Positions 8,630 to 27,292 of a DNA stretch of 27,330 nt are shown piece after piece (the stretch's first letter is position 1; each line of letters starts with the position of its first letter). The notes beneath the pieces were generated by a model. It saw nothing but the letters and a program-made list of their open reading frames with translations, was not told the DNA's origin and did not search any database. This DNA is from a virus, in IMG/VR virus record IMGVR_UViG_3300048929_000043, positions 1-27,330 of that record; one strand, written 5' to 3'. The position numbers and the translations under genes were made by a program.

Positions 8630-9468
8630 GCATGTCGCGGATGTTTCTCCGCGCGCTTGCGTGCGTCGCATTGCAGAAGCAAGCGGACGACGCGGTATCG
8701 CCGACGATGGCAGACGACAGGGTGTTCGACAGCCGTCTCGATCCAGTGATGTTTCAGGAGTTCGACAACCCCATGCCGGGGATCATCGTCTACACGGACG
8801 ACGATTCCGGCGATCTCATAAATCGAGGCAGCGGCTCCGGCCCCTATCGGCGTTGGGTCGATCTCCGCGTGGAGTTGATGTTGGGGAGCTTCGCTACAGA
8901 GATCATAGATGAAAAACAACGCGTGGTCTTCGACGTCCCCACGACCGACGCGGAATTGGAAGCGCAGCTAGACCTACTGGAAGCGCAAGCGAAATGGGCG
9001 CTGTGGCAATTGCCACGTGTCCACACCAACGCATTCAAATCGTTCGTAGTGCGTCTTGAGAATGTTCAGTCGCATGCCACGAGAGATGAAGCAAACAACC
9101 GCTTCGCGTCTCGTCGACTTCACTTCAAGGTCGAAATACCCGACGACTGCCCGCCTACCTTCTACGGCACTATGCCCGGTGTACCGATCCCCGAGTCGAT
9201 TCCTTTCTGTGAGGACCTCTCGAAATTCCCGGCTCCGTGGATCAGGCCGATGCTGCAAGCCATGTGCAACATGCCGAGCATGCAAGGCGTGCTGCAAGTT
9301 CTCGCCGGCAGCAATAACCCGACCGTCTATGTGCCGTTGCTGAAAAAGATCGGCATCAACGTTGACGCGATAGAGCCGATGGCTGACCCGGACCTCCTGG
9401 CACAGCAAGGCAAGACGCACGGACCCGATGGGCGCATCGAGGTCGAGAACATATTGGAGATTCCATGA
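8626..9468 (+). CDS. putative tail terminator / neck protein
   Basis: A 280-aa soluble protein occupying the slot just before the DUF2635 and sheath genes, where Mu has its tail terminator (gp37). The N-terminal 160 residues show the terminator-like order of helix, strand IIVYTDDDSGDL, strand RWVDLRVELMLGSF and the acidic helix TDAELEAQLDLLEAQAKWAL. The remaining part (CPPTFYG, CEDLSKFPAPW, CNMPSMQGVL) is not recognised and makes it longer than usual terminators. ATG 8626 overlaps the gpFII-like stop by 4 nt; a second in-frame ATG lies at 8632. Assignment is mainly by position. Confidence 0.55.
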   Translation: MSMSRMFLRALACVALQKQADDAVSPTMADDRVFDSRLDPVMFQEFDNPMPGIIVYTDDDSGDLINRGSGSGPYRRWVDLRVELMLGSFATEIIDEKQRVVFDVPTTDAELEAQLDLLEAQAKWALWQLPRVHTNAFKSFVVRLENVQSHATRDEANNRFASRRLHFKVEIPDDCPPTFYGTMPGVPIPESIPFCEDLSKFPAPWIRPMLQAMCNMPSMQGVLQVLAGSNNPTVYVPLLKKIGINVDAIEPMADPDLLAQQGKTHGPDGRIEVENILEIP

Positions 9469-9665
9469 CGCGAGTTGTGACTGTGCGTCCCGTTCCGGGG
9501 CGTCTGATCTTGATGCCTGAGAGGGCATTCCAGCCCGTCCCCGAGGAAGGCGCGAAGGTTTACCTCGACGCTTTCTACACGCGGACAATCAACCAGGGTG
9601 ATCTCGAAGTCGTGCCGGAAGCTCCGGTCGCGACGAAGAGCGTTGCCGAAAAGCCGAGCAAGTGA
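9465..9665 (+). CDS. DUF2635 family protein (Mu gp38-like)
   Basis: A 66-aa protein directly upstream of the sheath gene, the normal place of DUF2635 in Mu-like phages. The family pattern is visible: VRPVPGRLILMPE at the start, VPEEGAKVYLDAFYTRTINQ in the middle (the 'lP.eG..V....yw.rr...Gd' motif) and GDLEVV near residue 45, followed by a Pro/Ala/Lys tail. The biochemical role is not established. It overlaps the previous gene by 4 nt (ATGA) and ends 8 nt before the sheath start. Confidence 0.85.
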   Translation: MTRVVTVRPVPGRLILMPERAFQPVPEEGAKVYLDAFYTRTINQGDLEVVPEAPVATKSVAEKPSK

Positions 9666-9673
9666 GGGCCTAG

Positions 9674-11155
9674 ATGGCTATTCAGTTCAACCAAATCCCC
9701 GGCAACATCCGGGTCCCCTTCGTTCGCTTCGAAGTGAACGCGGGTACGCAACCGTACTCTTCGATCCAGCGCCTTGTTCTGATCGGTCAGATGACCTCGG
9801 CCGGCGTGGCAACGGCCGACATGCCGCTGTTCGTCACGGAGAACGAAGACCAGCTGTTCGGCACGGGCTCGATGCTCGCGTCGATGTACAAGACCGCGCG
9901 AAAGAATGCTCCCTTCCAGGAGATTTGGGCGATCCCGCTGGCCGACGCCACGGGTGGCGCCACCGCCGCGGTCGGCAGCATCAAGATCACGGCGCCGACC
10001 ACGTCGGTCAGTCTCGTCTACTACATCGGCGGCTATCGCGTATCCGTCCCGGTGAATGCCCTCATGACCGCCGCGAACTGTGCGACGGCGCTGGTTGCGG
10101 CCATCAACGCGGTCAACGGCATCATCGTCACCGCTGCGGTGGATGGGACCGACACCACGATGGTCAAGATCACTGCCAAGAACAAGGGCACGCTCGGCAA
10201 TACCATTCGCATCGAGACCCGGCTCTATGCTGACGACGGCATCGCCGCCGACGACCTCAGCGTCATCGTGCAGCCGACAGGCGGTAGCGGCGATCCTACG
10301 ATCACCAACGCCATCGCCAACATGGGTGATGACCAGTGGGACTGGATCGTTATGCCGTATTGCACTGGCGCCTACCTGACCGAGCTTGAGACCTGGCTCG
10401 ACGCGCGTTGGGGTCCGATGTCGCAAATGTACGGCCACAACATCACCGCGTTCTCCGGCTCTGCCGGCGAAGTGCAGGCATTCACCAGTGCGCGTAACAG
10501 CTGGCACTCGTCGATCATGCCGGTGAAGAACGGTCCGCAGCCGACCTATCTGTGGGCCGCTGCTATCGGCGCGCAAACCGCGCAGCATTTGCAGACGCCG
10601 CCGGAACTGTCTCGTCCGCTTCAGACTATCGAACTCATCGGCATCCTGCCGCCGAAGTCGGTCGCGGATCAGTGGAGCACAGTGCAGCGACAGAGCTTCT
10701 ACTTCGCTGGTGCATCTGGCTATCGCGTGCAGGATGGTGTGGTTCAGATCGACCGTCTGCTCACCACCTACCAGCGCAACGCGTGGGGCTCACCTGATCA
10801 GTCGTGGCTCGATGTCAACACGATCGCACAGCTGATGTACGGCCTTCGTGCGATCATGGCCTACATGACGCAGACCTGGCCGCGTGCCGCTCTCGTCGAC
10901 AAGAACCCGAACAACATCCAGGGCTTCGCGACGGCAGACGACATCAAGAACTCGTTCATCCATATCTACAAGGATTTGGAAGCGATCGGCGTGTTCGAGA
11001 ATTCGGACCTGTTCGCGCAGCTGCTCATCGTCGAGCGCAATGCGACCGATCCGAACCGGGTCGATACCTATCTGCCGCTCGACCACGTCAACCAGCTGCG
11101 CGTGCTGGCGGTGAACTCGACCTCGTTCCTGCAATATCCCACGGGCACGCTGTAA
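9674..11155 (+). CDS. contractile tail sheath protein, Mu gpL-like
   Basis: The outer contractile sheath around the tail tube. At 493 aa it matches Mu gpL (about 495 aa). The family order is visible: an N-terminal IPGNIRVPFVRFEVNAGTQ segment (residues 8-26), a variable protruding domain with many Thr/Val strands, the central DWIVMPYC and MYGHNITAFSGSAGEV part, and a conserved C-terminal domain ending QLRVLAVNSTSFLQYPTGTL. GAGGG lies 7 nt before the ATG. The stop TAA is part of a repeated CTGTAAGG motif and is followed by a strong hairpin. Confidence 0.95.
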   Translation: MAIQFNQIPGNIRVPFVRFEVNAGTQPYSSIQRLVLIGQMTSAGVATADMPLFVTENEDQLFGTGSMLASMYKTARKNAPFQEIWAIPLADATGGATAAVGSIKITAPTTSVSLVYYIGGYRVSVPVNALMTAANCATALVAAINAVNGIIVTAAVDGTDTTMVKITAKNKGTLGNTIRIETRLYADDGIAADDLSVIVQPTGGSGDPTITNAIANMGDDQWDWIVMPYCTGAYLTELETWLDARWGPMSQMYGHNITAFSGSAGEVQAFTSARNSWHSSIMPVKNGPQPTYLWAAAIGAQTAQHLQTPPELSRPLQTIELIGILPPKSVADQWSTVQRQSFYFAGASGYRVQDGVVQIDRLLTTYQRNAWGSPDQSWLDVNTIAQLMYGLRAIMAYMTQTWPRAALVDKNPNNIQGFATADDIKNSFIHIYKDLEAIGVFENSDLFAQLLIVERNATDPNRVDTYLPLDHVNQLRVLAVNSTSFLQYPTGTL

Positions 11156-17454: not shown

Positions 17455-17994
17455 ATGGACATCCGTATCCGCGATACCGAAGCCGACGATCAACAGCCGT
17501 TCTTGCTGTGGGATTCCTACTGGAATCAAAACCTGCTTGATCCCGCGGTGGTCGACTGGAAGCTGGCCGGGCCGGACGCACCGCAGAACGCCTACGGGCT
17601 CGCAGCCGATCACGCTCTTCATACCGCGATCCTGATCTCCCTCTTCACGTGGCGACGCGCCGACCCGAGCGACAAGCTGCCGTCCGGCGCCGACCCAAAG
17701 GGTTGGTGGGGCGACACGATCGATCTCGAAGAAAACGAGACACGCATCGGTTCTCGTCTGTGGCTCTTGTTGCGCTCGACGCTCAGCGAGAACACGGCGC
17801 GTTTGGCCGAAGACTACGCGTACGAAGCGCTTCAACCGATCATCGACCAGGGCGCCGTTGCGCGATTCGTCTGCACCGCAGAGGTCGACGTGGTCTCCGG
17901 CTATCTCGCCCTCGACGTGAAGGCGTATTCACAAAGCGAACAGATGGTCTACGACCAGAAGTTTGAGCGCCTATGGCGACAGGAGTTTGCATAA
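17455..17994 (+). CDS. baseplate protein, Mu gp46-like
   Basis: A baseplate wedge component, similar in role to T4 gp25. The 179-aa protein has the GP46 family pattern: HALHTAILISLFTWRRADPS (residues 44-63) and the hallmark DPKGWWGDTIDLEENE, then IGSRLWLLLRSTLSENTARL and the helix YAYEALQPIIDQGAVARF, with a final strand pair DVVSGYLALDVKAYS. The ribosome site AAGGA lies 9-10 nt before the ATG. The stop overlaps the gp47 start by one base (TAATG), so the two wedge proteins are probably coupled. Confidence 0.93.
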   Translation: MDIRIRDTEADDQQPFLLWDSYWNQNLLDPAVVDWKLAGPDAPQNAYGLAADHALHTAILISLFTWRRADPSDKLPSGADPKGWWGDTIDLEENETRIGSRLWLLLRSTLSENTARLAEDYAYEALQPIIDQGAVARFVCTAEVDVVSGYLALDVKAYSQSEQMVYDQKFERLWRQEFA

Positions 17995-19070
17995 TGCCTT
18001 TCCAAATCCCAGCCATCAAGGACATGGCGCAGCGAGCGCGCAACGCGTTCCGCGCCGAGATGCCCGGCACCGATGCATGGATTTGGCCGAACAACGTCTA
18101 CGTGAGCGCCAAGGTCATCGGCGGTGCGGTGTGGGAAGTGTTCGGCCGACTGAAGTGGATGGACCGACAACGTTTCGCCTTGACGGCTACCGGCTATGAG
18201 CTGGATCGCCACGGGCTCGATTACGGCATCGGCCGCAAGGGCAAGTCGTACGCGCAGGGCAACGTCGTTGTCAGCGTTGACACTTTCCCTTTCGAAATCC
18301 CCTCCGGCACGATCTTCACGCGATCGGACGGAGCTTCCTTCACATCGACGCGCGCGGCAGAGGTGGGACAGTTCTCACTCACTGCGACCGTTCCAGTTGT
18401 CGCGGACGTCGCCGGCCGCAGCGGAAACACGATATACGGTGCTCCGTTGTCGACCACGCTATCAGGCGTCCAGTCTGCCAGCGTGGATGACGTCGGGTTA
18501 GGGCAGGGTGCCGACCAGGAGACCGACGATCAGCTGAGAGCCCGCATCTTGCACCGCAAGCGATATCCGCCCCACGGCGGCGCCGCTAGCGATTACATAG
18601 GGTGGGGGCTAGAGCTTCCCGGTGTGACGCGTGTCTTCGTGAAGGGCAACGCCTTCGGCCGCGGCACGGTCGGTGTGTGGTTCTTGATGGACGACAACTA
18701 CGTCGCCGGCATCCCGCTTCAGGCCGATGTCGACGCCGTGCAGGCCCACATCGATTCCGTCGCCCCCGTTACCGCGATCCCGATCGTGCAGGCGCCGATC
18801 GCCGATTGCGTGGACATTCAGATTCGCAACCTTAACCCGGACACTCAGGCAGTGCGCGAGGCCGTTGCAGCCGAGTTGCAATCGCTCTTCCGCCGGACTG
18901 CGGTGGTCAGCGTGCCCGACGATCCTTTCATCCTTTACCAGTCCCAGCTCTGGCAGGCCATCGCCAATGCGACCGGCGAACGTAGCCACCAGCTCGTCGC
19001 GCCATCTACCGACGTGACGTTCGCGCCTGGCACGATGCCGTGTCTTCGGAGCGTGACGTTCCTGCCATAA
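17994..19070 (+). CDS. baseplate wedge protein, Mu gp47/baseplate J-like
   Basis: Builds the baseplate wedge with gp46. The start is ATG 17994 (MPFQIPAIKDM), overlapping the gp46 stop; an upstream in-frame codon at 17973 would lie inside gp46. At 358 aa it fits the Baseplate_J family. Visible features are WIWPNNVYVSAKVIGGAVWE near the N-terminus, RHGLDYGIGRKGKSYAQGNV, the acidic link DVGLGQGADQETDDQLRARI followed by LHRKRYPPHGGAASDYIGW (the J signature), then VTRVFVKGNAFGRGTVGVWF. The next gene, unusually, is not gp48 but a membrane hydroxylase-like gene 11 nt downstream. Confidence 0.93.
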   Translation: MPFQIPAIKDMAQRARNAFRAEMPGTDAWIWPNNVYVSAKVIGGAVWEVFGRLKWMDRQRFALTATGYELDRHGLDYGIGRKGKSYAQGNVVVSVDTFPFEIPSGTIFTRSDGASFTSTRAAEVGQFSLTATVPVVADVAGRSGNTIYGAPLSTTLSGVQSASVDDVGLGQGADQETDDQLRARILHRKRYPPHGGAASDYIGWGLELPGVTRVFVKGNAFGRGTVGVWFLMDDNYVAGIPLQADVDAVQAHIDSVAPVTAIPIVQAPIADCVDIQIRNLNPDTQAVREAVAAELQSLFRRTAVVSVPDDPFILYQSQLWQAIANATGERSHQLVAPSTDVTFAPGTMPCLRSVTFLP

Positions 19071-19081
19071 CGAGGTCCGAC

Positions 19082-19519
19082 ATGAAAGACGGCGAGTTCA
19101 TCATAGCGCCGATGGTTGCTGCGGCGCTGTTTGGCGCCGATCCGAACCTCCTGTGGTTCGCGCTCGGGTGTGTGCTGTGGACTTTCACGGAATACAGCAC
19201 GCACCGTCTGTTGCACGTCCTTCGGCTTCCGCTTCACCACCATCACCACGCGCGTCCGCGAGAAGAGCCGTCTCCGATCTTCTGGCCTTTCTGGACGCTC
19301 GTGTTCGGGTTGGTTTGGCTTGCACCGCTGGCGATGATCTCCGGTCTCGCCGCCGCGTATACGTGGTTCATCAACGTCCATCGGGACTGCCACCACAACA
19401 CGGACAACGTGTTGCCGTCGCTGCTTGAGCACCACGACAAGCACCATCACGCGCACCCGAATAGCAACTTCGGCGTGAGCACCCGCTTTTGGGATTGGGC
19501 TTTTCGAACACTCGCATAG
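19082..19519 (+). CDS. fatty acid hydroxylase/sterol desaturase-family membrane protein (cargo gene)
   Basis: A compact 145-aa integral membrane protein with the His clusters of the diiron hydroxylase superfamily. These are H41-x3-H45 (THRLLH), H52-H56 (five His), H100-x3-H104-H105 (HRDCHH) and H117-H118-x2-H121-H122-H123 (HHDKHHHAH). NSNFGVSTRFWDWAFRT at the end is the classic 'NFG.t...WD.lFgT' finish of this family. Hydrophobic stretches at about 8-36 and 64-97 supply the transmembrane helices that place the His near the cytoplasmic face. Such enzymes use O2 and two irons to hydroxylate or desaturate acyl chains, sterols or carotenoids; the substrate here is unknown. The start is ATG 19082 (GAGG about 7 nt upstream). 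It sits inside the Mu-type tail operon between gp47 and gp48, so it is a late-expressed accessory gene. It is shorter than most family members, though similar to carotene hydroxylases. Confidence 0.85.
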   Translation: MKDGEFIIAPMVAAALFGADPNLLWFALGCVLWTFTEYSTHRLLHVLRLPLHHHHHARPREEPSPIFWPFWTLVFGLVWLAPLAMISGLAAAYTWFINVHRDCHHNTDNVLPSLLEHHDKHHHAHPNSNFGVSTRFWDWAFRTLA

Positions 19520-19533
19520 AGGAATGACAGCCA

Positions 19534-20619
19534 ATGACAACGGCGCTAGGCCCGTCTGAGACTTGGTGCCCGAGGACTACCGACGAGGCTATGACAGGTG
19601 TGCAGGGTCTCTTTCCTCCCGGCCCTTCCTTTCACTCCGTCAACGTCGAGGGCACTCAGCAATACCACTACTGGCGCGCATTCTCCAACGTGCTCGGCTA
19701 CACCTACTCGCGGCTTTGCGACTATGTGGACGAGTTCTTCTGCGCGACGGTGAACGAGTCTCGCGATCAATGGATCGAAGAGTACGGCTTGAACGATCCG
19801 TGCGATCCGTACGGCCACAACCTGTGCCTCAAGGTTGCTGCGGAGGGCGGCGCCACTTGCGATTACTTCGTGCAGATGGCGGCGCTATCCGGCCTCTCTA
19901 TCACCTGTAACGCCGCCGACATCCCTGAACCCATCGCGGGTTGCTTCGAGGTCGGCTGCACCCCGCTGGGGCCGACGCCGACGTTCGTAGGACGCGGCAG
20001 CCGGCTCGGCTACGGGCAGCAGAACGTGTGCGACTTCGGCGAGGTCGTCGATCACCCGAACCCGGACAAATGGGAGAACGGGAGAACGAACGGGGCTTCG
20101 TGCCCTGTGCCTGGGAGTAACCTCGGCGACGGTCCCGATCAGTACGAGTCGTGCTGCATGATCGTCGGCTATTACGATTTCCATGTCGACGTTCTGCCGA
20201 CAGACTCTTCGTACTGCCAGAACGCGAGCACCACGATCACTTTCGAATGCCCGTTATCGCCTCGCGGTACGGACACATCACCGTGCCCCACCACACCGGA
20301 CGTTACCCGGCAGCTCGACGCCACCGGCAACTACAGCGATTGGGGCCATGCATACGTGTGGGAAGTAACGGTCGACCTTAGTGCGACGCCGATCCCGCCG
20401 ACGACACCCGGCTCCGAGCCGGACCCGGATGCGCCGAGCAGTCAAGCCGGGTGCTTCATGGTCGGTCTTCCTCTGTTCACCACGGACGGATCGTCTGCCG
20501 GCGGGACGGAGCTTTGCGCCGAGTTCGCAGGAGCAATCGATCCGACGTTCACGATCTGCTTCCTCGATCGCATCAAGCCGGCGCACACCACTCTCAACGT
20601 GAAAGTCATCCAGCCATGA
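19534..20619 (+). CDS. Cys-rich gp48-like (DUF2313) tail protein
   Basis: A baseplate-periphery protein that links baseplate to fibres. The first 150 residues show the gp48/YmfQ pattern: GLFPPGPSFHSVN, WRAFSNVLGYTYSRLCDYVD, then NESRDQWIEEYGLNDPCDPY, the 'dP.ta...l..WE...GLpd' motif. The rest is atypical: 361 aa with 19 cysteines (about one in nineteen), including a CC pair near residue 209, a repeated AGCFEVG / AGCFMVG motif, and a Pro/Ser/Asp-rich linker (SATPIPPTTPGSEPDPDAPS). The family is usually about 200 aa and not Cys-rich. AGAGGA lies 9-10 nt before the ATG. It overlaps the first fibre gene by 4 nt. Confidence 0.8.
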   Translation: MTTALGPSETWCPRTTDEAMTGVQGLFPPGPSFHSVNVEGTQQYHYWRAFSNVLGYTYSRLCDYVDEFFCATVNESRDQWIEEYGLNDPCDPYGHNLCLKVAAEGGATCDYFVQMAALSGLSITCNAADIPEPIAGCFEVGCTPLGPTPTFVGRGSRLGYGQQNVCDFGEVVDHPNPDKWENGRTNGASCPVPGSNLGDGPDQYESCCMIVGYYDFHVDVLPTDSSYCQNASTTITFECPLSPRGTDTSPCPTTPDVTRQLDATGNYSDWGHAYVWEVTVDLSATPIPPTTPGSEPDPDAPSSQAGCFMVGLPLFTTDGSSAGGTELCAEFAGAIDPTFTICFLDRIKPAHTTLNVKVIQP

Positions 20620-24147: not shown

Positions 24148-24876
24148 ATGCTCAACGCGAAGTTAGTCGCCGCGAACGCGGCGCGATGGGCGCGAGCGAA
24201 GCTCACCCGTTCATCCGAGTTCAATCCTGTCGCCAAGCGCCTGATCGCCGCCAAGGCGCGCTACCAGGCCGTCGAAGCCAAGACCGGCGTGCCTTGGTAT
24301 GTCATTGCCGTCATCCACGAGCGCGAATCCTCGCAGTCGTGGGCTGGTTCGTTGGCGCAGGGCGATCCGTGGAACAAGGTCTCCACGCATGTGCCCGCCG
24401 GTCGCGGCCCGTTCAAGTCTTGGGAAGACGCCGCCGTCGACGCGCTGGTGAACTGCGCGCCCTACGCGTCACGAAACAAGGACTGGTCGATCGGCGCGCT
24501 GCTCACGCTGCTCGAAGGCTACAACGGCCTCGGGTACTTCAACAAGGGCATCCCGTCGCCGTACGTCTGGTCGGGCACCGATCAGTATGTGAAGGGCAAG
24601 TATGTTCGGGACGGAGTGTTCGATGCGAACACCGTCGACAAGCAGCTCGGCTGTGCCGGTCTGTTGCTTGTGATGGCGAGCCTCGATCCGTCGATCGGTC
24701 TGTCGCAGGGTCCGGCTAGCGCGGCATCCGTACCTCCGGTGTCCGCCCCCGTTCCGGTCGTGAAGCCCGTAGTGCCTGCCGCTCCCATCACCCCGTCCGT
24801 CAGCAACCCTGCGCCCGGCTCGATCGGTGCGTGGGTGAAGATGCTGTTCGAAGCGCTGTTCAAGAAAGGGAAGTAA
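24148..24876 (+). CDS. endolysin, glycosidase-like
   Basis: A peptidoglycan-degrading enzyme opening the lysis cassette. The 242-aa protein has a catalytic domain at about residues 35-190: RYQAVEAKTGVPWYVIAVIH, then ERESSQSWAGSLAQGDPWNK with candidate catalytic acids E58 and E60, THVPAGRGPFKSWEDAAVDA, and LLEGYNGLGYFNKGIPSPYV. This resembles lysozyme-like phage proteins of rhizobial bacteria. No signal peptide is visible, so export would depend on the holin. A Pro/Val-rich linker (about 200-225) precedes a short amphipathic tail GAWVKMLFEALFKKGK that could touch the membrane. A strong terminator stands directly upstream. Confidence 0.85.
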   Translation: MLNAKLVAANAARWARAKLTRSSEFNPVAKRLIAAKARYQAVEAKTGVPWYVIAVIHERESSQSWAGSLAQGDPWNKVSTHVPAGRGPFKSWEDAAVDALVNCAPYASRNKDWSIGALLTLLEGYNGLGYFNKGIPSPYVWSGTDQYVKGKYVRDGVFDANTVDKQLGCAGLLLVMASLDPSIGLSQGPASAASVPPVSAPVPVVKPVVPAAPITPSVSNPAPGSIGAWVKMLFEALFKKGK

Positions 24877-25021: not shown

Positions 25022-25218
25022 TGTTTGCTCTCGCTGGCCCCATCACCCGTATCGCGTTGCGATACGGCGGCGGCTATCTCGCCGGCCGTTACGGCTTGGC
25101 GATCGACTTCAACGATCCCGACATCTTCGAGGTGTCGGTGGCTATCGTGAGCGGCCTTCTCTTCATCGGAAATGAAGGCTGGTACGTGGTGGCACATAAG
25201 CGGGGGTGGCAACGGTGA
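25021..25218 (+). CDS. small membrane protein in lysis cassette (65 aa)
   Basis: ATG 25021 shares its A with the stop of the 47-aa gene. The protein has an N-terminal semi-hydrophobic part (MFALAGPITRIALRYGGGYL), an acidic turn DFNDPDIFEV and one hydrophobic helix at about residues 37-50 (VSVAIVSGLLFIG), then a basic tail HKRGWQR. Small proteins of this plan accompany holins in alphaproteobacterial phages. It may be a holin partner, antiholin or spanin-like piece; no lipobox or coiled coil supports a spanin. The end overlaps the holin start. Confidence 0.65.
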   Translation: MFALAGPITRIALRYGGGYLAGRYGLAIDFNDPDIFEVSVAIVSGLLFIGNEGWYVVAHKRGWQR

Positions 25219-25628
25219 CATGGCTCTTTAGTTTTCTCTCCGGCCCGATTATGAGCTTCCTCGGCGGACCCCTTATCAAGGGGTTGCTTGACGCCTACAA
25301 GGCTAAGCTCGCTCAGGCCGACAGCCAGGACGCAAAAGCGCTTGAACTCCTTACGAAGGAGATCGACGCCGACATCGCCGCGCGGGCAGAAGCGACCAAG
25401 CTTCTGATCGCCGAGCAAGGCCACTGGTACACGGCGTGCATTCGCCCGCTGTTCGCCTTGCCGTTCATCCTCTACTCGTTCAAGATCGTCGTGTTCGATA
25501 AGGTGTTGGGACTTGGCACCACCCCGGTGGGCATCGACGCGAACTTCTGGTCGATCTTCCACACCATCATCATCGCGTACTTTGGCGCCACCGCCGTAGA
25601 ACGGGTGACCAAAATCTTCAAGCGCTAG
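25215..25628 (+). CDS. holin, three-helix type (GTA/HP1-like)
   Basis: Forms inner-membrane holes that release endolysin. GTG 25215 is chosen because it overlaps the preceding stop (GTGA) like other pairs here and has GGGGGTGG just upstream; GTG 25206 is an alternative adding three residues. Hydrophobic segments lie at about 2-23 (LFSFLSGPIMSFLGGPLIKG), 80-97 (PLFALPFILYSFKIVVF) and 110-128 (FWSIFHTIIIAYFGATAVER). A charged helix lies between the first two (KAKLAQADSQDAKALELLTK). The IRPLFALPF motif and the closing FGATAVERVTKIFKR are typical of this holin group. Its stop overlaps that of a minus-strand gene. Confidence 0.8.
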   Translation: MTWLFSFLSGPIMSFLGGPLIKGLLDAYKAKLAQADSQDAKALELLTKEIDADIAARAEATKLLIAEQGHWYTACIRPLFALPFILYSFKIVVFDKVLGLGTTPVGIDANFWSIFHTIIIAYFGATAVERVTKIFKR

Positions 25629-25972: not shown

Positions 25973-27292
25973 TTGGCCGCCAAGAATGACCTATCGCGCC
26001 GGCACGAAGTCGTCGCCAAGTTCGCTGAGCTGAGAGACATGAAGGCGGTAGCCGATACGCTTGGCATCACCCGTGATCACGTCCGCAGAGTGCTTAAGAA
26101 CATGGGGATAACGACCAGGGCTGTTTCGCTTGCCGAGGCCCCCACCACGACGATCGCAGCCGGGCCGGCGCCCGAGCCTGTCCGTCTCGATCTCGCCGAG
26201 AAGCACCGTTTCGAGCAGAACGAGAAGCAGCTGAAGAAACAGCTCAAAGAGCTGACCGAGCGTCTTGTCGCCGCCGAGGACCACCGCCAGAGCATTCTCG
26301 GGCTGTCCTTCGATCCGGTCGAGCCGATCTGCAAGCCTCAAGTCCTTCAGATCGGAGAGCGCGGTCGCCAGGCAGCAATCCTACATCTCTCGGACACGCA
26401 TGAAGGCGAGGTCGTCAACTTCGAAGAGACGATGGGCGTCAACATGTACAACCGGGATATCGCGCGCAGGCGCTTCGCCCGCGTGTTCGAGACGGCGGCC
26501 ATCCTGACGACGACCGCCTGGCCGCGCTCAGACGGAGCGCCCCACAAGATATTCCTTCTGCTCGGCGGCGATCTGATCAGCGGTCACGGGTTGCACCCCG
26601 AGCTGGCCGAGACGGACTACGGCACAGCGTACGAGCAGTGCAAGAACGCTTCGACCAACATTGCATCCGGCGCGCTGCGCTGGTCGATGGAGTTGCAGGA
26701 GCATTGGGGTCACCCGATCGAGATCGTCATCATCTCGGTCGGCGGCAACCACGGGCGCATGACGTTCGGCAAGCCGCGCTCCAAGCTCGCGCCCGTCCAG
26801 AGCTATGACACGCTAGTCGCCGACTTCGTTGAGTCTGCACTGCGGGGCCAGGGCAACTTCAAGTTCTTCACGCCTCGCTCGTTCGATGCCTACTTCGACA
26901 TCGTCGGTTGGCCGACACTGCTCACACACGGCGACCGCATGAGCGCTGGTGGCGGCACGGGCTTCATCGGCCCGGCGGCGAACATCGTGAAGGGCCACAA
27001 GAAGATCATGCTCACCGAGGCGCAGCAGCGCCGGCCGGTGCGGTTCATCTTCAGCGGACACTTCCACACCCGGCTGGTCACCCCGTGGGGTTTCTCCAAC
27101 AGCGCGATGATCGGCTACAGCGAGTTCGCCAAGTCGATCCGCGCCGACGCCGAGCCCGCCTCGCAGAACTTCGTCGTCCTGCACGAGCGCCTCGGTCTGT
27201 TGCGCGAGCAGCCGATCGTCGTCGGCCGGCCGGACGAGGGTTCCATCTACTCACCTGCCGGCGGCCTGATCCTACCGTCCCCCGACCTCTGA
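25973..27292 (+). CDS. HTH-metallophosphoesterase fusion protein
   Basis: A 439-aa calcineurin-like phosphoesterase with a DNA-binding-like front end. It starts at TTG 25973 with AAGGAA 6 nt upstream. Residues about 22-46 form a helix-turn-helix (MKAVADTLGITRDHVRRVLK). Residues 75-105 are a Lys/Glu/Gln-rich coiled coil. The catalytic domain carries all metal motifs in order: LHLSDTH (D141, H143), LLLGGDL (D200), VGGNHGR (N259, H260), LLTHGD (H319) and FSGHFHTR (H363, H365), so it should be an active two-metal enzyme on a phosphodiester or phosphomonoester. Its own promoter/operator region sets it apart from the lysis genes. The substrate is unknown; a nucleic-acid role is suggested only by the HTH. 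Confidence 0.88.
   Translation: MAAKNDLSRRHEVVAKFAELRDMKAVADTLGITRDHVRRVLKNMGITTRAVSLAEAPTTTIAAGPAPEPVRLDLAEKHRFEQNEKQLKKQLKELTERLVAAEDHRQSILGLSFDPVEPICKPQVLQIGERGRQAAILHLSDTHEGEVVNFEETMGVNMYNRDIARRRFARVFETAAILTTTAWPRSDGAPHKIFLLLGGDLISGHGLHPELAETDYGTAYEQCKNASTNIASGALRWSMELQEHWGHPIEIVIISVGGNHGRMTFGKPRSKLAPVQSYDTLVADFVESALRGQGNFKFFTPRSFDAYFDIVGWPTLLTHGDRMSAGGGTGFIGPAANIVKGHKKIMLTEAQQRRPVRFIFSGHFHTRLVTPWGFSNSAMIGYSEFAKSIRADAEPASQNFVVLHERLGLLREQPIVVGRPDEGSIYSPAGGLILPSPDL

Follow-up and report, generated by a model that had tools for sequence, protein, structure and literature searches.

A phage tail operon of the Mu type was found to carry, in addition to its baseplate genes, a gene for a compact membrane protein of the fatty acid hydroxylase (FAH) superfamily. 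The window analyzed is the whole of IMG/VR record IMGVR_UViG_3300048929_000043, a fragment of 27,330 bases, and the gene, here called the cargo gene, occupies positions 19082-19519 on the plus strand and encodes 145 residues. It is probably a mobile auxiliary gene, moron-type in the wide sense, for an active diiron membrane hydroxylase acting on a host membrane lipid. This explanation is supported by the family, the fold and the conserved site of the protein, by the position of the gene as an extra one, by its recurrence in unrelated phages and by purifying selection in its relatives.

The frame of the cargo gene is intact, with 145 codons from the ATG at 19082 to the TAG at 19519, and inspection of the sequence revealed a GAGG motif resembling a ribosome-binding site 6 nt 5' of the ATG (19072-19075, plus strand). 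The open reading frame given in an earlier note on this DNA was thus borne out. The GC and GC3 of the gene equal those of the neighbouring phage genes, and the encoded protein is small, with hydrophobic stretches. No sigma-70-like promoter was found for the gene, and the single terminator-like site falls within the gene itself, a count below chance expectation. The cargo gene therefore does not have the promoter and terminator of its own that characterize a classical moron. Since it is embedded in the operon, it can be called a moron only loosely, as additional cargo.

The neighbouring genes, all on the plus strand, were identified with PHROGs and Pfam. A gp46-type baseplate gene (17455-17994; phrog_180, 6.8e-36) precedes the left neighbour, a gp47-type baseplate gene (17973-19070; phrog_6, 5.6e-52), which is separated from the cargo gene by 11 nt. 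The right neighbour, a gp48-type baseplate gene (19534-20619; phrog_203, 4.7e-7 over residues 14-124), follows after a gap of 14 nt. Together with a gp45-type gene (PF06890, 5e-15), the order is gp45, gp46, gp47, cargo gene, gp48, in agreement with the earlier claim that the Mu order 45-46-47-48 is interrupted solely by this gene. The gp48-type protein has 361 residues and, beyond residues 14-124, a long Cys-containing extension common to near relatives. The head genes are of the lambda type (terminase gpA, portal, S49 protease and capsid E) and only the tail is Mu-type, indicating a mosaic phage. An exonuclease-type gene (25973-27292, plus strand; phrog_284, 1.6e-34) follows the tail fibre genes at the right end.

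A survey of relatives also agreed with the proposed insertion between gp47 and gp48. In the nearest relatives having both neighbours (L003-L006; gp47 72% identical, gp48 60-66%), the interval is 8-10 nt long and empty. These four records probably represent two distinct phages, as L005 and L006 look like one and L003 does not differ from L004 across the junction. No match to PF04116 was found among 30 related records. The cargo gene is an extra gene in a conserved operon, absent from near relatives, as expected of a moron or auxiliary gene, and the empty interval indicates that it entered this tight operon as a unit, or left it as a unit in the other phages.

The same interval holds an insert of 1.7 kb (9140-10803) in a distant relative, L014. 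The insert carries a different gene, a 358-residue minus-strand open reading frame with CxxC motifs, and is another cargo in the same place. The case for gp47/gp48 as an insertion hotspot is not strong, since this second insert carries another gene in the opposite orientation. One near relative of the window phage was also encountered in assemblies of Streptomyces iakyrus (63,072 bases) and Phycicoccus jejuensis (33,203 bases) (L054 and L055), and the same near relative, with the same gp47 match, is present in a metagenome (L006, 63,029 bases). Its occurrence in two unrelated actinobacterial assemblies probably reflects a contaminant phage.

The assignment of the protein as a membrane enzyme of the FAH superfamily, made originally from the sequence alone, was upheld by the PF04116 (FA_hydroxylase) profile, which matched at 1e-12 with 49 bits against a curated cut-off of 31 and was aligned over positions 1-132 of 132. 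Only FA_hydroxylase clears its Pfam cut-off; the other match, SHP, falls below its own. Local alignment of the cargo protein with its nearest relative gave a score of 274, compared with a mean of 34 for shuffled sequences (sd 6, maximum 65). Judged by sequence, the match to the superfamily stands well clear of chance. No NCBIfam model matched the protein. A sequence search of the PDB returned the yeast ceramide hydroxylase Scs7 at 5e-4.

An AlphaFold2 model, computed from an alignment of 14 proteins (the window protein and viral proteins), had a pLDDT of 85.4 and a pTM of 0.81. When the model was compared with the PDB by Foldseek, Scs7 (4zr0/4zr1) was matched with a probability of 1.00 and a TM score by query length of 0.62-0.68, making Scs7 the only credible PDB relative by sequence and by fold. 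The predicted structure shares a helical membrane fold with the hydroxylase domain of Scs7 and, at the level of the fold, agrees with the earlier proposal. No desaturase-type profile passed its cut-off in Pfam, and the PDB fold match was Scs7 alone and not stearoyl-CoA desaturase. In the viral structure library (BFVD), the named matches were giant-virus FAH or desaturase proteins, all of them weak.

The conservation of histidines was scored across 40 homologues, 25 viral and 15 bacterial. The cargo protein has the four motifs of PF04116, all encoded on the plus strand: HxxxH at H41 and H45 (19202-19216), HxxHH at H52, H55 and H56 (19235-19249), HxxxH at H100 and H104 (19379-19393) and HxxHH at H118, H121 and H122 (19433-19447). 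Nine of these ten histidines are invariant; H104, in the third motif, is absent from one homologue. The adjacent H105 is partly conserved (80% of viral and 53% of bacterial proteins), and H53, H54, H117, H123 and H125 are unconserved, although they lend the protein its His-rich look. The four His clusters described earlier are therefore real, with ten conserved histidines, but H53, H54, H117 and H123, which had been counted among them, are not conserved and H105 is so only in part. The site histidines are kept while their neighbours drift, a pattern expected of a retained metal site rather than of a mere His-rich stretch.

Single-sequence searches with the cargo protein returned nothing from IMG/VR, GTDB contigs, GenBank phages or plasmids. 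The idea of an orphan gene was nevertheless rejected, since the family was recovered by profiles built first from bacterial homologues (Bradyrhizobium BTAi1 and further alphaproteobacteria) and later from those of phages. Profile searches of IMG/VR yielded a first set of 14 viral loci, all 14 exceeding the PF04116 cut-off, and 28 loci in all with compact FAH genes. The gene lies between terminase and portal in L069, between DNA polymerase and helicase in L083, upstream of DNA polymerase in L072 and L077, between integrase and terminase in L084, just upstream of the endolysin gene in L085, L086 and L096, after a tail lysozyme in L088 and after tail fibre genes in L091 and L093. In alignment A4, the 5' part of L088 precedes its likely start and is unreliable. 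A role in tail assembly was rejected because relatives adjoin terminase, polymerase, integrase and endolysin genes; neighbourhoods of replication, packaging, tail and lysis make any role tied to virion assembly unlikely.

Two other genes of the window, both on the plus strand, bear on the mobility of the FAH gene. The first (24148-24876) has no Pfam or PHROG match, and in L070 and L081 its homologues (58% and 50% identity by tblastn) immediately precede the FAH gene. The second (25206-25628) is small, with a weak holin-like match (phrog_3427 holin, 0.0095), and its homologue in L070 (39% by tblastn) comes shortly after the FAH gene. In L070, the FAH gene is thus flanked by homologues of both, whereas in the window the two have no FAH gene between them and the FAH gene is found some 5 kb off, in the gp47-gp48 interval. 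The comparison is direct evidence that the FAH gene has changed place. Furthermore, pairwise dN/dS among the relatives is 0.11-0.35, indicating that the protein is maintained by purifying selection. The FAH gene is mobile cargo and not a part of the tail.

In a first tree, the window protein grouped with L069, L070 and L083 (support 95/82) and with L088 (100/98), all of them phage proteins. It sits on a long branch of 1.9-2.5 changes per column, so that its own substrate may have shifted, and the purifying selection is that of its relatives. A subgroup profile run against 266 genomes of the genus of Bradyrhizobium BTAi1 gave a two-peaked result: 13 compact copies, spread over 11 genomes, matched at 2e-41 or better, and every other copy at 1e-27 or weaker. 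One compact copy, L141, lies inside a prophage head module and is the L069 prophage itself, the terminase, portal, protease and capsid being 100% identical, which fixes the host group of the L069 phage as Bradyrhizobium. The other compact copies are located in variable regions, with gene GC below that of the flanks; two of them are broken. The compact bacterial copies fell into one clade (99/98) of a second tree, nested in a 15-row group with the five phage proteins (99/98). No branching order was resolved within this group, so transfer may have run either way. From its relatives, the host of the window phage would be a Bradyrhizobium-type alphaproteobacterium.

Lipid genes adjoin only some of the bacterial copies, and others sit beside unrelated genes. 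The copy in L152 neighbours a CFA synthase gene. A conserved Bradyrhizobium cluster (L147:5894-10076 and L149:9802-13987) combines a compact FAH gene with genes for a T_hemolysin-family protein, an acyl-AMP ligase and an SDR, and looks like a lipid or acyl-product pathway; a literature search on the T_hemolysin / AMP-ligase / SDR cluster gave nothing useful. In L066 (1486-3336), the gene immediately before an alphaproteobacterial FAH gene is of the aminotransferase type and, judged by eye, resembles serine palmitoyltransferase, a hint that the FAH protein there may be a sphingolipid hydroxylase.

A lipid hydroxylase carried as mobile cargo is the best explanation because the protein matches the full PF04116 profile, has Scs7 as its sole credible PDB relative, shows the His pattern and belongs to a family found at 28 other viral loci. 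The empty site, the varied positions beside hallmark phage genes, the dN/dS values, the Bradyrhizobium and prophage copies and the lipid or acyl genes beside some bacterial copies (L152; L147 and L149; L066) argue in the same direction. For the cargo enzyme, we infer catalysis, metal, substrate, expression time (late timing included) and benefit as follows; the gains suggested in the earlier note, a block to re-adsorption, easier release or altered fluidity, belong with these inferred points. During infection or lysogeny, the protein would insert in the host inner membrane, where its ten conserved histidines would bind two metal ions, probably iron, on the cytoplasmic face. A host redox partner would supply the electrons, no gene for such a partner having been seen within the window. 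With O2, the enzyme would then add a hydroxyl group to a lipid of the host membrane; an acyl chain or an aminolipid of Bradyrhizobium-type Alphaproteobacteria is the likeliest target, and the resulting change in membrane packing and surface properties would benefit the phage or the lysogen. In broader terms, an uncatalogued phage lipid-hydroxylase family may be passing among unrelated phages and accessory regions of Bradyrhizobium, allowing the phage to remodel the host membrane chemically, a proposal that falls slightly short of what we would call probable. Possible gains from such remodelling are, for example, exclusion of competitors and protection of the infected cell or lysogen.

Superinfection exclusion is a special form of the lipid hydroxylase explanation, in which a surface altered by the modified lipid would stop sister phages from binding or injecting. 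Exclusion of other phages is common among morons, and the family recurs in temperate-type phages, with an integrase beside the gene in L084 and the prophage L141. However, the superfamily acts at the inner membrane or the ER, and an effect at the outer surface would need export of the lipid; exclusion as the specific benefit is rather unlikely. The possibility of a carotenoid or terpenoid substrate was also weighed. The 145-residue size and the His motifs resemble those of compact CrtZ-type hydroxylases, and carotenoids are made by the photosynthetic Bradyrhizobium sp. BTAi1, so the phage could alter host pigment or hopanoid chemistry instead of an acyl lipid. This is improbable, as no carotenoid gene occurred among the bacterial neighbour proteins scanned and NCBIfam yielded no model. 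Equally improbable is another reaction, desaturation or vinyl-ether formation, at the same fold and diiron site. The wider histidine-rich membrane diiron group catalyzes hydroxylation, desaturation and decarbonylation, and one weak BFVD fold match is named as a lipid desaturase domain, but both the profile and the sole PDB match are hydroxylases.

A non-catalytic membrane protein that retains the fold, holin-like or a scaffold for example, would suit the small size, the hydrophobic stretches and the endolysin genes beside several relatives, but it is very improbable given that the ten site histidines are kept in every viral copy while neighbouring ones vary, and that many relatives lie far from lysis genes. 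Host contamination, misassembly or neutral passenger DNA, suggested by the single metagenome record and by the nearest phages without the gene, is scarcely credible and was rejected on composition (GC and GC3 equal to phage genes), on spacing (gaps of 11 and 14 nt inside one operon, with an intact frame) and on recurrence of the subfamily at phage-internal positions elsewhere, with dN/dS of the relatives below 0.4.

Few phage genes act on host lipids, and the described ones that were found are desaturases of marine or brine phages. A compact hydroxylase family recurring in phages of rhizobia and of metagenomes provides a handle on whether phages remodel host membranes through hydroxylation, and its 145-residue member, in which the ten histidines of the site are all kept, offers a small model of the membrane diiron hydroxylases, a difficult group to study. 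Among the lipids of rhizobial hosts are hydroxylated and unusual ones that bear on stress tolerance and on the interaction with plants. In rhizobia, hydroxylated lipids have been associated with tolerance of stress, and a lowering of membrane fluidity has been suggested for them (PMC3972451).

Among known systems, the cargo protein resembles the fatty acid 2-hydroxylases Scs7/FA2H (4zr0, 4zr1) in its FA_hydroxylase domain, its four His motifs and its fold, and a solved relative of this type has a two-metal site (PMC10002949). Unlike Scs7, it has 145 residues, shorter loops and no cytochrome b5 domain, the identity is about 25%, and its family is viral and bacterial. The compact Bradyrhizobium FAH proteins belong to the same subfamily, with about 150 residues and the same site residues, but their genes lie in bacterial accessory regions and not in a tail operon. 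A virus-encoded FAH domain is also present in Mimiviridae sp. ChoanoV1 (A0A5B8IDN9), a weak fold match (probability 0.99, E 0.31); the giant viruses with FAH genes, unlike the window phage, are nucleocytoplasmic and infect eukaryotes. OlsE, the ornithine-lipid hydroxylase of Agrobacterium and Rhizobium, is a member of the FAH superfamily. As a rhizobial lipid hydroxylase it may be a further analogue, although it is chromosomal.

The FAH family was absent from PHROGs at E-values up to 1, three different family members had no match in 50,697 GenBank phage records, and no phage FAH-type hydroxylase family was found in the viral structure library. No description of a phage FAH-type hydroxylase was found in open-licence papers, and an earlier description elsewhere is possible. 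The earlier statement that a phage lipid-modifying enzyme is undescribed was, however, too strong, since fatty acid desaturases (vFAD) of Arctic phages have been published (PMC7300359), as have lipid desaturases of cyanophages (Roitman 2018, as cited in PMC7300359). Like the cargo protein, these are phage-borne membrane enzymes of the His-box diiron type, thought to modify host membrane lipids, and their repeated transfer from host to phage may be a further likeness to the cargo family. Unlike the cargo protein, they are of the stearoyl-CoA desaturase type, catalyze another reaction and belong to phages of marine or cold-brine hosts. The superfamily itself is well known; what would be new here is the predicted hydroxylase chemistry among the lipid-modifying cargo genes of phages.
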